Assembly (NCBI GenBank): GCA_012514175.1
Contig: JAAZAU010000001.1
Coordinates: forward strand, 1-56,285
DNA from: Parcubacteria group bacterium
Lineage (GTDB): Bacteria; Patescibacteriota; Minisyncoccia; Phycocordibacterales; WO2-35-19
Direction of reading: 5' to 3'
DNA length: 56,285 nucleotides
Under the pieces are notes generated by a model. It was not told the DNA's origin, did no database searches, and worked only from the letters and a program-made list of their open reading frames with translations. Numbering within the stretch: the first letter of the stretch is position 1; every line of letters starts with the position of its first letter. A program made the translations under genes and the position numbers. Positions 46,558-53,711 of this stretch are shown piece by piece.

Positions 46558-46684
46558 CCTCTTTTCTTTGATGATTTGATTATACCACCATAAAGGTGTT
46601 TCATTTATAGCCAAAGAATTATATCCCTTTGATTTATAAAATGTGTGTGTTAAATTATACTGTGAAGTTATAACAACAACGTCT

Positions 46685-47194
46685 ATGAGTTTTGAAAAGC
46701 CGAAACCGGCACAAATAGAAAAAAGTCAAGAAAAGGAGCTTATTTTACAGCGTATTGAGAAAATAAAAGACTTGTGGTCGGTTTTGCAAAAACATTGGGA
46801 AGATAGTGGTGTGGCGGATCCGCTTGCTGAAATTTCCTCAGAAGTAACGCAAGCTGAAGAATTATTCAAGAGTGAAATTGTCAAAATGCTTGCTTGTTCT
46901 CCAGAGGAAGCGGAGGTGCTTTACGAAGAAGCAAGGAGGATCAAGGCTGATACTATTGGCGAACCAATTCATCTGAGGGCAGCGATATATGTTACAAATG
47001 TATGTAGACAAAATTGCCGTTGTTGCACGATGAGGAGTGATAATCTCAAAGAGGGAACAGTTGAAAGAAAAAGAATGAATAAGGATGAAATTGTGGAAGC
47101 GATTGTGCAAGCGCGTGAGGGGGGGGAATTAAAGACATATTTATTCAAGGAGGAGAGGATGTGGAAATCATCTCGACAGTTATTGAGGCGGTGA
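46685..47194 (+). CDS. Radical SAM protein (BioB/HydE-like), 5' part, interrupted at G8 tract
   Basis: HLRAAIYVTNVCRQNCRCCTMRSDN (CX3CX2C); reading frame broken at 47119-47126. Confidence 0.75.
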   Translation: MSFEKPKPAQIEKSQEKELILQRIEKIKDLWSVLQKHWEDSGVADPLAEISSEVTQAEELFKSEIVKMLACSPEEAEVLYEEARRIKADTIGEPIHLRAAIYVTNVCRQNCRCCTMRSDNLKEGTVERKRMNKDEIVEAIVQAREGGELKTYLFKEERMWKSSRQLLRR

Positions 47195-47856
47195 AAAAGG
47201 CCAAAGAAGACTACCACGACATTGATATAACTCTTAGTTTCGGAAATTTGTCACAGGAACAGTATAAGGAAATTTATGATGCAGGCGTAAGAAAGTATGT
47301 TATTAAAATTGAAACTGCTAACTCAAGAATTCATGAGGAGCTTAGAAGCCGAACTATTCAAGATCGTATCAATTATATGGTGTCCGCCAAAGAAGCGGGG
47401 CTTGCAATTGGTTCAGGGAACATTATAGGATTACCAGGTCAAACAGATGATGATCTTGCGTCCGATCTCATTTTTCTTGGTCGGTTTGGGGTTGACGAAA
47501 TGATAAGTAGCACGACCTACACACCATCCGAAGTTTTGCCGGAACCATACAATAGACAACCGGCTGGTGATTGGGAAAAGACCAAAAGATTCATTGCATT
47601 ATTGCGCTACCTTTTTCCGAAAGCATATATTGAAGTTCCAAGTAATGTTGACGGGCAGGGAATAATAAGAAAAAACCAAGAAATACTAGGTCAAACCGAA
47701 CTGATTATGGCGGGCGCTAATGACATGCTGGTTGAGTTTACTCCTCAAGAAATGGCTAAGAGTTATGGCGCAACTGCTACTCCAGAAAATCGCCATGTGG
47801 TAAATATGGAAGTCGCGCAAAGAGTGGTTGCGGAGGTGGAAAAACTCTCCAAATAA
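47161..47856 (+). CDS. Radical SAM protein (BioB/HydE-like), 3' part
   Basis: Continues the TIM-barrel: KIETANSRIHEELRSRTIQDRINYMVSAKEAGLAIGSGNIIGLPGQTDDDLASD. Confidence 0.75.
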   Translation: MEIISTVIEAVKKAKEDYHDIDITLSFGNLSQEQYKEIYDAGVRKYVIKIETANSRIHEELRSRTIQDRINYMVSAKEAGLAIGSGNIIGLPGQTDDDLASDLIFLGRFGVDEMISSTTYTPSEVLPEPYNRQPAGDWEKTKRFIALLRYLFPKAYIEVPSNVDGQGIIRKNQEILGQTELIMAGANDMLVEFTPQEMAKSYGATATPENRHVVNMEVAQRVVAEVEKLSK

Positions 47857-49257: not shown

Positions 49258-51057
49258 TCACTTTTTCACAAGCGATAAGCATGTCATAATATGAAAAAGT
49301 CGGTCTGACACATCTCTTGTAAAAAATTTCTTTTTGCCAAAACCATGAGCGAAATCATTTCTCAAATTCATTCCTAATTTTTCCGTCAGCACCAATCTGA
49401 AGTAAAAAGCCATATTTTGCCCCGTTCCAGCAAAAACTCTTTCAATAATTTCACCTTGTTTGTTCAATAATTGGCGAAGGGTAAGGCGATCGTATCCGCC
49501 AAGATTATTTGGCCTCAAAACAATACCACCGCAATTTTTTACCAATTCCCTGATTGCGCTTTCGATCAACGGACTGAACAAGTGTGAAGAAACAAGATAA
49601 TCATTATCCCAATATACTGAGATTGCTCGCTCTAAATACTCTTTATTTTCATTCTCAAAAAGTGTTGAGTTTCTAAAATAATCCGTAATGTTTTGTTTAG
49701 AAACTCGCTTTTTCAGTTCATCGATCACAAGAGTTAGAAAAAACGAACCAAATTGAATATACTGCGAAGCGTATCGCTGGAAATGATTGTCGTAATCTTC
49801 CCCAAGCGTGGAAAGTTTAGCTATTGGTATTCCGTCATCGGAAATAATTTGTGTCGTGCATAAAAACTGGATCGGGTGTTTTCCGGAAACATCTTTTAAT
49901 TGCTTTTCTACCGCTTCTTTTTTCGGTAAAAAATTGATTGCTATTTTAGCGATAATCGCTTCTAATTTACTTTGCTCTTTCTCGCCAAAAATTGCTTTCA
50001 AAAAATCGTCAATATCTTTCTGTTTTATTTCCGTTGTTACGGAAATTTCTTTGAGGGATTTATTCCAATCCAAGTCCAGCTGCCCCATTTCCTGCGAAAT
50101 TCTGTTGCTGGCGGCTGTTGCCTTTGAAAATCCTTTGTCTCTGTATTTTTGATATATCTCGTGTACTTTTTCGTATGCGTGTACTTTCAATAATGCGTCA
50201 GAATTTGTGCGGTCGTTTGTTTTTAATAATTTTTCCAAAACATCTAAAACACGCATTAAATTATCTTCGTCTTTTTCGTTTGCGTAATATTCAGCAAGCA
50301 AGGAAACGGCGTTTTCCGCCAGCCACACATCTTTTTCAACCCTTTTCAACCTATCTTCTAACGCTTTAATCAATTCCGATTTTTCTGTTTCCGTAATCGT
50401 AATTTTTTTTTCAAAATCCAAAATGAGCCACTTAAAAGCAAAGCCCCACAGCCCCGGCTTATCGTCTGTCGCCACTTTTTTCTCAAGATTGATTATTGCT
50501 TCTTTTGCTTTGGCGATTTTTTCTTGATTGTTAATTTGAATTGCCAAAACTAACGCTCTTTTGATTTTTGTTTTGCAATCAAGAGGGTCGGCTAATGATT
50601 TTTCGCAAATTGCGATATTTGAATCTATAACTATCTGAAACAAATCAATATCGGCACTTTTGTTTATAACTTTCGGTGAAAAATCAACAACCAAATCGGC
50701 GTAGCGTGATGATAAAATAGGGTTTTTGCTTTCCTTTGCTCTTTTTGTCCAATATTCCAACATTTCTTGATCCACTTGCCTAATACTTGGATATTCCACC
50801 ATTTGTTCTTTGTTGTCTGGTAAAACAAACATTGGTCCATGATAAGTTTCCCAGTCATTATTATCATTCGGATAATCTGCCATGAAATCAAAAGCTATTT
50901 GCTCCGCAATGTCTTCTTTTGTTGGCTCATATTGTTTATCTTTTTTGAGAAGATCTTTTATTTTTTGTGCAATATTATGCTCTCTACAAAAAGACGTAGG
51001 AGTTATTTGTTCTCGTTCTAAACTTTCAAGATATTTTTTTACCTCATTATTGAGCAT
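49258..51057 (-). CDS. DUF4209-like protein with C-terminal HEPN-type RX4H motif
   Basis: GGIVLRPNNLGGYDRLTLRQLL...NMAFYFRLVLTEKLGMNLRNDFAHGFGKKKFF; RNDFAH fits RX4H. Confidence 0.7.
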   Translation of the reverse strand: MLNNEVKKYLESLEREQITPTSFCREHNIAQKIKDLLKKDKQYEPTKEDIAEQIAFDFMADYPNDNNDWETYHGPMFVLPDNKEQMVEYPSIRQVDQEMLEYWTKRAKESKNPILSSRYADLVVDFSPKVINKSADIDLFQIVIDSNIAICEKSLADPLDCKTKIKRALVLAIQINNQEKIAKAKEAIINLEKKVATDDKPGLWGFAFKWLILDFEKKITITETEKSELIKALEDRLKRVEKDVWLAENAVSLLAEYYANEKDEDNLMRVLDVLEKLLKTNDRTNSDALLKVHAYEKVHEIYQKYRDKGFSKATAASNRISQEMGQLDLDWNKSLKEISVTTEIKQKDIDDFLKAIFGEKEQSKLEAIIAKIAINFLPKKEAVEKQLKDVSGKHPIQFLCTTQIISDDGIPIAKLSTLGEDYDNHFQRYASQYIQFGSFFLTLVIDELKKRVSKQNITDYFRNSTLFENENKEYLERAISVYWDNDYLVSSHLFSPLIESAIRELVKNCGGIVLRPNNLGGYDRLTLRQLLNKQGEIIERVFAGTGQNMAFYFRLVLTEKLGMNLRNDFAHGFGKKKFFTRDVSDRLFHIMTCLSLVKK

Positions 51058-51114
51058 ATTTTTGATAGAATTTGCTGTGGATAATTGACTACGGACTTTC
51101 TATTTTCTTTCTAT

Positions 51115-51132
51115 TATACTATAAGAAGTATA
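51115..51132. promoter_or_regulatory. Inverted repeat TATACT-N6-AGTATA, candidate LexA operator
   Basis: Perfect 6-bp arms in the 104-bp divergent intergenic region, 30 bp before the LexA-methyltransferase start. Confidence 0.45.
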
Positions 51133-51161: not shown

Positions 51162-52694
51162 ATGCTTACAAAAAAACAGAAACAAGTTTTAGATTTTATA
51201 TCCTCCTATCACAAGAAAAAGGGATATGCCCCTTCTTTGGAAGAGATACGCAAAAAACTTAAAGTTGCCTCTGTTTCAACCGCCCATTTCCATGTAAAAA
51301 ATTTGCAGAATTTGGGATTTATCGGGAAGCAAGATAATAGACCAAGGTCAATTGATATTTATGAAAAGGAAAAAATGGTAAATGTTCCATTACTTGGATT
51401 AATTGCGGCTGGTCAACCTATTGAAGCGATACAAAGTCAAAACAGAGAAACAATCGCCGTTCCAAGAAGTAAAATATCTCGCAATGGTGAATTTTACGCT
51501 TTAAGAGTAGTTGGTGACAGTATGATTGATGAAAATATAAATGACGGCGATTTAGTTTTAGTTAAACAACAAGATACCGCTAAGAATGGACAAAAAATAG
51601 TTGCCCTTGTGGACAACTATGAAGCTACTTTGAAAAAATTTTATAAAGAAAAAAATTATATAAGATTACAACCTGCGAACAAAACAATTGAGCCGATTAT
51701 TATAAAAAGAAATAGAGAGTTAACAATACAAGGTATTGTTATTGATGTAATAAAAAATGAAGAAGAGATACAAGCTGAAACACTTTTAGAAAATAAAGAA
51801 ATAAAAAGAAGTCAAACACTTCCTTTGAATAAAATTATTTTAGGCGATGCCGTAGAAGAATTAAAAAAATTACCAAATGAAAGTTGTGATGTTGTTATTA
51901 TTGATCCACCATATAATATCGGAAAGGATTTTGGAAATAACTTAGATAAGCGCGAATTAAAAGAATATGTCGCTTGGTGTAAAGAATGGATAAATGAATC
52001 AATTCGGGTTATGAAGCCCACGGGAACAATGTTTATTTATGGGTTTAGTGAAATACTCGCCTATCTTTCAGTTGAAATTTCGATCAATAAACGCTGGCTT
52101 ATTTGGCATTACACAAACAAAAATGTTGCCTCGTTAAATTTTTGGCAAAGAAGCCACGAGGCTATAATTTGCGCTTGGAAAGATATCCCAATTTTTAATA
52201 AAGATGATGTTAGAGAGCCATACACTGAAGGTTTTTTAAATGGAGCCGCGGGAAAAGTTAGAAAAGGAACCGCTGGGAGATTTAGCCGTAATGGAAAAGA
52301 AACAATTTATAATGCTCATGCTGGCGGGGCTTTACCTCGCGATGTAATAAAAATACCAGCTTTAGCTGGTGGAGCGGGAATGAATGAAAGATGGTTTATT
52401 TGTAAAACTTGTAAAAATCAAGTTTTTGAGCCAAGAGAATTAAAAAACCATGCAAAGCATGATATAGTCAAGCACCCTACGCAAAAACCTCTTGAATTAT
52501 CAAAAAAATTAGTGATGTCCGCAATGCCCAAAAAAGACGGGGTTGTGTTGGTGCCATTTGTTGGAACCGGTTCTGAGTGTGTAGCAGCTAAAAAGTTGGG
52601 TCAATCTTATATAGGGTTTGAAATAAATCCCGACTATATAAAATTGGCTGAAAAATATCTGGAAAAAAGCAAATACACTCCAAAATTATTTTAA
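51162..52694 (+). CDS. LexA repressor (wHTH + S24 autoprotease) fused to a DPPY-type beta-class DNA methyltransferase
   Basis: LTKKQKQVLDFISSYHKKKGYAPSLEEIRKKLKVASVSTAHFHVKNLQNLGFI; LGLIAAGQP (Ala-Gly); VVGDSM (Ser); EATLKKF (Lys); then VVIIDPPYNIGKDF (motif IV) and HPTQKPLELSKKL...VPFVGTGSECVAA (motif I). Confidence 0.9.
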   Translation: MLTKKQKQVLDFISSYHKKKGYAPSLEEIRKKLKVASVSTAHFHVKNLQNLGFIGKQDNRPRSIDIYEKEKMVNVPLLGLIAAGQPIEAIQSQNRETIAVPRSKISRNGEFYALRVVGDSMIDENINDGDLVLVKQQDTAKNGQKIVALVDNYEATLKKFYKEKNYIRLQPANKTIEPIIIKRNRELTIQGIVIDVIKNEEEIQAETLLENKEIKRSQTLPLNKIILGDAVEELKKLPNESCDVVIIDPPYNIGKDFGNNLDKRELKEYVAWCKEWINESIRVMKPTGTMFIYGFSEILAYLSVEISINKRWLIWHYTNKNVASLNFWQRSHEAIICAWKDIPIFNKDDVREPYTEGFLNGAAGKVRKGTAGRFSRNGKETIYNAHAGGALPRDVIKIPALAGGAGMNERWFICKTCKNQVFEPRELKNHAKHDIVKHPTQKPLELSKKLVMSAMPKKDGVVLVPFVGTGSECVAAKKLGQSYIGFEINPDYIKLAEKYLEKSKYTPKLF

Positions 52695-53375
52695 AGAATT
52701 ATCTATTTCTTTTTTCTTCGGCAAAAAAGTATCTGGTGTAAAAACAACAAAACCATTATCAAAAGCCTTTGTTCGTTTGTCTTCCAAAAATCTTAAGTAA
52801 GGCAATCTAAATTCGCCACTCTTTGTTTTTGGATCAGACAAACAAGTCGGCACTTCATATTTTATATCTATATTTTCGCCGTTATTTTTCTTTTTTCTCG
52901 GCAAAGGAACTCTGCTCATCACTCCACTAAAACTTGTTTTCTTGACTTGATAATTTAAAATACGATTTTTATAATTAACTCTTATATCTGCGCCTAAAGA
53001 ATCAAGCTCACGAGACATATCCACTGTTCCATTTCCAAAAACGGATTCGGCAACATAACCGCCGTGAATTTGAGTTATTAACCCCGCCCAAGTTCTGTAA
53101 ATTCGGGCTTCTATTCCGCGATAAAAACAATCTTTACACATTGTTGTTTTCTGTCTAAACTTTTCAAGTAAATCTCCTTTCTCTTTCGTATATCTTTTAT
53201 AAAATTTTTCAAAAGTAATAAATTTTTTCTCTTCCCAATATACTTTATATAAAAGTTCAATGGCTTGAATTCCTTTTGGCAAATCCATTTCAACAATTTT
53301 AATAGTGCTATATTTTTTTCTATAGTCTTTTAAGGGAACAGTTTGTAGAAATTTATCAAATTTTTCTAAATACAT
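52686..53375 (-). CDS. Type II restriction endonuclease, tentatively MjaI-like
   Basis: CKDCFYRGIEARIYRTWAGLITQIHGGYVAESVFG...SLGADIRVNYKNRILNYQVKKTS (D-x(n)-QxK core); convergent with and overlapping the methyltransferase 3' end. Confidence 0.65.
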   Translation of the reverse strand: MYLEKFDKFLQTVPLKDYRKKYSTIKIVEMDLPKGIQAIELLYKVYWEEKKFITFEKFYKRYTKEKGDLLEKFRQKTTMCKDCFYRGIEARIYRTWAGLITQIHGGYVAESVFGNGTVDMSRELDSLGADIRVNYKNRILNYQVKKTSFSGVMSRVPLPRKKKNNGENIDIKYEVPTCLSDPKTKSGEFRLPYLRFLEDKRTKAFDNGFVVFTPDTFLPKKKEIDNSLK

Positions 53376-53376
53376 A

Positions 53377-53595
53377 TTAAATAAAATAATTTATTTCTTT
53401 TTTATATATTTTTGCGAGTTCTTGTAATTCTGCTACATCAATTCTGCGTTCGCCTCTTTCAATTTTTGATAAATAAGATTGAGGTTTTTTTAATTTTTTA
53501 GCAACTTCTTCCTGTTTTAAACCAATTTCAAACCTAGCTTTTTTAAGCCTTTCAATAGTTTTTTTATATTCTTTTGAATAAATTGACTTGTTCAT
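53377..53595 (-). CDS. XRE-family HTH regulator (possible C protein)
   Basis: IERLKKARFEIGLKQEEVAKKLKKPQSYLSKIERGERRIDVAELQELAKIY; 72 aa, directly upstream of the endonuclease on the same strand. Confidence 0.88.
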   Translation of the reverse strand: MNKSIYSKEYKKTIERLKKARFEIGLKQEEVAKKLKKPQSYLSKIERGERRIDVAELQELAKIYKKEINYFI

Positions 53596-53609
53596 ATTAC
53601 TTTTAGTAT

Positions 53610-53628
53610 ATATCCTATTGTAGGATAT
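53610..53628. promoter_or_regulatory. Perfect inverted repeat ATATCCTA-TTG-TAGGATAT, candidate XRE operator
   Basis: 8-bp perfect arms starting 15 bp upstream of the XRE gene start codon. Confidence 0.55.
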
Positions 53629-53711
53629 CCCAAAATAGGTTATACTAATTTAGGGAGCTTCTCTCTGTTGCTCGCGCATGGGTGGGCGAGGCAAATACAG
53701 CTCAATTAATT

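Follow-up and report, generated by a model that had tools for sequence, protein, structure and literature searches.

The window, that is, the whole stretch of 56,285 nucleotides that was analysed (contig JAAZAU010000001.1 of a Parcubacteria group bacterium), carries a gene that encodes a LexA repressor and a DNA methyltransferase in one polypeptide. The genes of the locus and one associated repeat are as follows.

49258–51057 (−): DUF4209 gene, divergent from the fusion (PADLOC candidate defence family PDC-S39)
51162–52694 (+): LexA–methyltransferase fusion, 510 aa (Pfam, NCBIfam and PDB sequence matches, fold model, Foldseek)
52686–53375 (−): TaqI-family restriction endonuclease, convergent with the fusion and overlapping its 3′ end by 9 nt (Pfam RE_TaqI, 9.6e-28; PADLOC REase_II)
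53377–53595 (−): XRE-type C-protein-like regulator, 72 aa, directly upstream of the endonuclease gene (HTH_3; PADLOC Control_protein; PDB matches)
53605–53635 (−): conserved repeat (TTTTGGGATAT..CAATAGGATATATACT) on the predicted C–R promoter (upstream-region comparison; promoter scan)

The fusion occupies a single open frame without stops or frameshifts, in which LexA (aa 1–199) is followed by a linker and by the DNA methyltransferase (aa ~215–510). Its parts are given below.

51165–51347 (+): winged HTH (wHTH), aa 2–62 (Pfam PF01726 LexA_DNA_bind, 5.7e-15; E. coli LexA alignment)
51387–51743 (+): S24/LexA autoprotease domain, aa 76–194 (Pfam PF00717 Peptidase_S24, 1.9e-31)
51408–51413 (+): scissile Ala83–Gly84 (LIAAGQP), invariant in 72/72 S24-bearing fusions
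51519–51521 (+): catalytic Ser120 (GDSM), aligned with E. coli LexA and invariant in 72/72
51633–51635 (+): catalytic Lys158 (ATLKKF), invariant in 72/72 S24-bearing fusions
51762–51800 (+): inter-domain linker, aa 201–213, predicted to be disordered (pLDDT ~32)
51888–52655 (+): beta-class DNA methyltransferase domain, aa 243–498 (Pfam PF01555 N6_N4_Mtase, 2.5e-35; PADLOC MTase_II; Foldseek)

All three Pfam domains scored above their cut-offs, and the NCBIfam lexA equivalog TIGR00498 gave 183.6 bits (cut-off 110.95). The wHTH and S24 domains together were thus recognised as LexA at the equivalog level, as they were by Foldseek, whose top matches for this half were LexA structures, LexA–RecA entries among them. 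The PDB sequence matches comprised Thermotoga LexA, E. coli LexA and beta-class methyltransferases. The AlphaFold model (mean pLDDT 77, pTM 0.54) consisted of two domains separated by the disordered linker, with a floppy loop at 84–94, past the scissile site. Foldseek matched the methyltransferase half to M.BceJIV, MboIIA, RsrI and CcrM. Its DPPY motif (aa 248–251, 51903–51914) precedes motif I, FVGTG (near aa 466–470), and this order of DPPY before FxGxG, combined with the N6_N4_Mtase profile, places the enzyme in the beta class. P250, Y251 and G468 are invariant in the family alignment A1. An initial annotation had proposed a beta-class DPPY methyltransferase with a C2H2-like insert; Pfam bore out the class, whereas the insert amounts to a Cys/His motif (CKTC...HAKH) that is also found in the family consensus and has a weak Pfam zinc-finger match (E=0.08).

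A83, G84, S120 and K158 match the scissile site and the Ser/Lys dyad of E. coli LexA, and the set of 72 in which the scissile and catalytic residues are invariant spans several methyltransferase classes. The profiles and the E. coli LexA alignment agree with the LexA wHTH, Ala–Gly site and dyad contexts described initially. The claim that both parts belong to one polypeptide also held, in that no stop or indel lies between them and the homologues are full-length. An assembly artefact or a frameshift was ruled out by full-length homologues of 69–94% identity in ~25 independent assemblies and by the recurrence of the same LexA-fusion architecture with other methyltransferases.

Pairing with a TaqI-family endonuclease is conserved among the relatives of the fusion, and the adjacent endonuclease gene marks the locus as a type II restriction–modification (R-M) system. 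TCGA is presumably the recognition sequence, a guess from the TaqI family only. The PDB relatives of the XRE regulator were C.BclI, the R-M controller protein 3clc and C.AhdI. As in C-protein R-M systems, this small protein lies upstream of the endonuclease gene, and the repeat on its own promoter (TTTTGGGATAT..CAATAGGATATATACT) is unlike the LexA operator described below. Since the convergent endonuclease is accompanied by the upstream XRE regulator, the locus appears to be a complete R-M system in which LexA-M faces C-R. The DUF4209 gene was not counted as a part of the system because it is common to one relative only, L033. This 5085-bp contig, titled Ignavibacteria, carries a near-identical locus including DUF4209, and is probably a CPR contig in a wrong bin. 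Elsewhere in the window, at 46643–47856 (+), two overlapping ORFs jointly resemble a single radical-SAM (HydE/BioB-like) gene interrupted by a frameshift around 47160–47195.

Operator and promoter of the fusion gene

Comparison of the upstream regions revealed three elements in front of the fusion.

51076–51084 (+): DnaA-box consensus TGTGGATAA, a perfect match, upstream of the operator
51097–51113 (+): putative LexA-type operator, direct repeat TTTCTA-N5-TTTCTA with a period of 11 (upstream-region comparison)
51115–51120 (+): putative −10 TATACT (sequence comparison; a consensus reading only, which a simple promoter scan did not call)

The operator repeat immediately precedes TATACT in the window, and in the relative L035 it occupies the 17-nt spacer between a −35 TTGACT and a −10 TATAGT. 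Exact 6-mer direct repeats with a period of 11 were found in 33/56 fusion upstream regions, compared with 0–2 for other periods and ~0.15 in all for shuffled sequences. Within 525 kb of loci, 58 of the 63 operator matches lay at fusion starts, and the other 5 corresponded to shuffled counts (3–6). These results place a LexA-type operator on the fusion's own promoter, and from its position we infer that the fusion protein represses transcription of the methyltransferase gene. LexA control of the endonuclease was ruled out, as operator matches away from fusion starts were at the chance level. A palindromic operator was also rejected: the window does have an inverted repeat of 6 bp at the −10, but it is not conserved, while the 11-bp direct repeat is. 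The predicted promoter of the DUF4209 gene overlaps the LexA operator in the promoter scan. According to a passage in one source, which cites a Patescibacteria study, direct-repeat LexA motifs are already known as a repeatedly observed deviation from the palindromic box (PMC7739468).

The half-site tracks the recognition-helix residue aligned with E45 of E. coli LexA (F43 in the window), with 61 of 63 concordant. Phe, Tyr or His at this position goes with TTTCTA or TTTCGA, and Glu or Gln goes with TTTCGG. On well-supported branches the phylogeny offered only three independent pairs; all of them agreed with this covariation, a number that is not significant alone. The host SOS LexAs of fusion-bearing genomes also have 11-bp repeats, with different half-sites that are mostly (T/A)(C/T)GG-like. 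Because of this difference, several fusions look insulated from the host SOS response.

The DnaA box TGTGGATAA was present in 46/73 fusion upstream regions against an expectation of 0.18, and in 25/323 control ORFs, part of which share the intergenic region of the fusion. It usually lies 22–23 bp, sometimes 11 bp, before the operator, and may perhaps couple methyltransferase synthesis to replication.

Distribution of the fusions and origin of their LexA domain

The fusion is a widespread CPR module and not a single oddity. After dereplication, 76 distinct fusion ORFs of LexA domain and methyltransferase were obtained from CPR bacteria, which answers the suggestion that the co-occurrence of the two domains be sought across this group. 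Scanning of GTDB genome contigs yielded 34 loci with a match spanning both LexA and methyltransferase, with a close group at 69–94% identity; almost all were labelled CPR or simply bacterium, although the patterns covered only the window fusion's subfamily, so that the search outside CPR was narrow. According to the open-frame column of the survey, LexA lies inside a long ORF in at least 20 of 380 genomes surveyed in the phylum and in ~26 of 197 genomes of the order. With the patterns of this subfamily no fusion was found in viral contigs, and no match covering 80% was found in phages or plasmids.

At least five kinds of methyltransferase are joined to the LexA domain in CPR: N6_N4 beta-class, a second N6_N4 type whose profile match is permuted, D12, C5, and a gamma-type enzyme that carries TaqI_C (L141). 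The partner endonucleases identified by Pfam belong to the TaqI, NgoFVII, MamI, HindIII, BglII, ScaI, BsaWI, MvaI/BcnI, EcoRV and HNH families, with AlwI and MutH-like partners in co-directional arrangements. Among fusions with a downstream gene, 61/70 are convergent with it, and the overlaps are mostly 3–20 nt. The convergent partners at L089, L095, L106, L107, L038, L061b, L154, L156 and L160 gave no match in Pfam, nor in NCBIfam where scanned; judged by position only, they are presumed to be endonucleases. In one elaborate form (L036:6001-9390, 1129 aa) the LexA–methyltransferase is further fused to a second N6 methyltransferase with a TaqI_C specificity domain. At L040:2916-8429 and L061:3889-8201, two tandem LexA- (or wHTH-) methyltransferase cassettes with convergent partners share one locus.

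In a tree of LexA domains (104 rows), all S24-bearing fusions fell into one branch with an SH-aLRT of 99, irrespective of the methyltransferase. The unfused LexAs of fusion-bearing genomes (L110–L118) branched elsewhere. Three unfused LexAs belong to the R-M branch: L020/L105 adjoins R.AlwI, L026 is a decayed fusion, and L024/L084 has no R-M neighbours. At L105:5961-6554 (−), the unfused LexA stands tail-to-tail with the AlwI-type endonuclease gene and the D12 methyltransferase is a separate gene, so that LexA is provided in trans. The topology fits an R-M LexA that arose once and later exchanged its methyltransferases; since this was a quick tree with many weak inner forks, it does not fix the number of exchanges.

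A candidate damage-sensitive circuit and its rivals

The architecture of the fusion and the position of its operator were established in silico, and we consider it probable that they form a private one-gene SOS circuit: a methyltransferase that represses its own synthesis, is derepressed by RecA-stimulated self-cleavage, and would thereby provide more methylation in response to cuts in the chromosome. The fusion would supply the modifying enzyme of a mobile type II R-M system (LexA-M, an R.TaqI-like endonuclease and a C-like HTH protein), and its LexA part a damage-sensitive autorepressor private to the methyltransferase gene. By binding the direct repeat that lies between the −35 and −10 elements in the fusion promoter, the wHTH would cap the synthesis of the methyltransferase. 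Unmethylated sites might appear through dilution, hemimethylation, loss of M or damage of another kind, and the partner endonuclease would cut them. RecA filaments would then stimulate cleavage at Ala83–Gly84, by which the wHTH (ending ...LIAA) would be lost and an S24-methyltransferase fragment, presumably still an enzyme, would remain. The derepressed promoter would raise the methyltransferase until the breaks stop and fresh intact repressor builds up, while the endonuclease would be separately governed by the C-like protein. Since the LexA switch appears to control only the fusion gene, self-inflicted breaks could automatically raise protection. Imbalance of a type II R-M system induces SOS (PMC3874152), which makes DNA breaks a plausible trigger. 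A RecA gene is present in the genome of the window, where the fusion is the sole LexA. Cleavage may bring little gain if the methyltransferase is fully active even in the uncleaved protein. The initial proposal that methylation or expression of the locus is tied to damage thus stands in part: the operator lies on the methyltransferase promoter and a TaqI-family endonuclease is adjacent, but the endonuclease lacks such an operator and has a C-protein-like regulator of its own.

The chief rival is plain autorepression: for the homeostasis of the methyltransferase, LexA would contribute just its DNA binding and dimerisation, like the repressor part of the SsoII and EcoRII methyltransferases, and cleavage would be idle. 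Confinement of the operator to the fusion's own promoter is compatible with such a role, and so are three wHTH-methyltransferases of the same R-M family that lack S24 (L005:1498-2667, L062:5977-7146 and L061:3889-5064). These retain an 11-bp TTTAGG repeat at the usual place upstream, and their existence shows that the system is able to do without the cleavage domain. We nevertheless regard this rival as rather unlikely, because the strict conservation of the cleavage residues (Ala–Gly, Ser and Lys in 72/72) argues against idle cleavage. The variant L143:4207-5505 points in the same direction: this S24-methyltransferase, still paired with a TaqI-family endonuclease, has lost the wHTH and also lacks the Ala–Gly site and the upstream repeat, the pattern expected, in this one case, if cleavage is selected only alongside an attached repressor. 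The same variant speaks against a scheme in which damage abolishes protection, with cleavage exposing degrons, the methyltransferase being destroyed and the endonuclease killing the infected cell (altruistic suicide or an attack on phage), because it keeps the S24-methyltransferase without a wHTH next to an endonuclease. That cleaved E. coli LexA fragments are protease substrates favours this scheme, as does the divergent candidate defence gene PDC-S39 adjoining the fusion; however, the latter is common to one relative only, and cleavage would derepress the M promoter as well, the opposite effect, which leaves the scheme quite improbable.

The confinement of the operator weighs on two further readings. 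The wHTH might bring the methyltransferase to LexA-type boxes for epigenetic marking instead of repression, for which a DNA-binding domain in cis and the flexible linker of the fold model would be suitable. An operator restricted to the fusion's own promoter does not suit such targeting, and a type II endonuclease partner requires methylation genome-wide; we consider targeting very improbable. The genome of the window (635 kb, estimated complete) encodes RecA, and no LexA other than the fusion was found in it, which could make the fusion the general SOS repressor of a LexA-less host. However, the three exact operator matches in this genome, just one of them at the fusion promoter, compare with two for the reversed control pattern, and the fusion occurs patchily and has spread horizontally, so that this role is hardly credible. 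With the exact pattern a single promoter matched genome-wide and no multi-gene SOS regulon was seen under the fusion, so it was not classified as a master LexA of the SOS response.

Relation to known systems

Repressor–methyltransferase fusions have been described. M.Ecl18kI, M.SsoII and M.EcoRII likewise carry an N-terminal repressor domain on a type II methyltransferase with an operator at the M promoter, and in them, as proposed here, expression is tied to the amount of the methyltransferase (PMC12707154, PMC3978073). With a DNA-binding domain fused to a methyltransferase and a putative operator at the M promoter, the present fusion belongs among such dual-function repressors, and, as in EcoRII, the fused repressor does not act on the endonuclease. 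The SsoII-kind repressors, however, are short HTH domains (~70 aa in SsoII, for which the 434 repressor served as the model) without an autoprotease, whereas the fusion has a complete LexA of the cleavable type, on several methyltransferase classes. With LexA SOS repressors (TIGR00498), including CPR LexAs with direct-repeat boxes, it shares the wHTH, S24, the Ala–Gly, Ser and Lys residues and an 11-bp repeat on its own promoter; it differs from them in its C-terminal methyltransferase, its separate clade, an apparently one-gene regulon and a half-site that is often CTA or CGA instead of CGG. As in the C.AhdI, C.Esp1396I and C.BclI systems, a small XRE regulator lies directly upstream of the endonuclease gene, but here the methyltransferase would be under its own fused LexA and not under C or its own methylation alone. 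CapH–CapP and CapK–CapS resemble the fusion in placing defence genes under a damage-sensitive repressor; there a separate repressor acts over immune operons, whereas in the fusion LexA belongs, in cis, to the protective enzyme itself.

No description of a LexA–methyltransferase fusion was found in open PMC texts, and a review of repressor–methyltransferase fusions (PMC12707154) does not mention LexA. The initial statement that no characterised R-M system has this architecture accordingly needs narrowing: methyltransferase–repressor fusions are known (Ecl18kI, SsoII, EcoRII), and it is for a LexA-bearing member that none was found. What is new here is the LexA of the damage-cleavable type, its range over methyltransferase and endonuclease families, and its apparent restriction to one operator. 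As a broader and more tentative reading, to which we give somewhat less than even credence, one co-opted LexA lineage may have turned into a transferable regulatory plug-in, taken up in CPR by five or more kinds of methyltransferase and by systems with more than 10 endonuclease families. In a closed loop, breaks from self-restriction would, through RecA, set the methyltransferase dose, often where host SOS is absent, with the DnaA box as a replication-linked input.

How R-M systems spare their hosts once methylation lags is a long-standing question. If the loop works, it would be a minimal homeostat in which breaks lead to more methylation. An SOS repressor would have been turned into a private switch for one gene, spread in CPR bacteria and swapped among unrelated methyltransferases.
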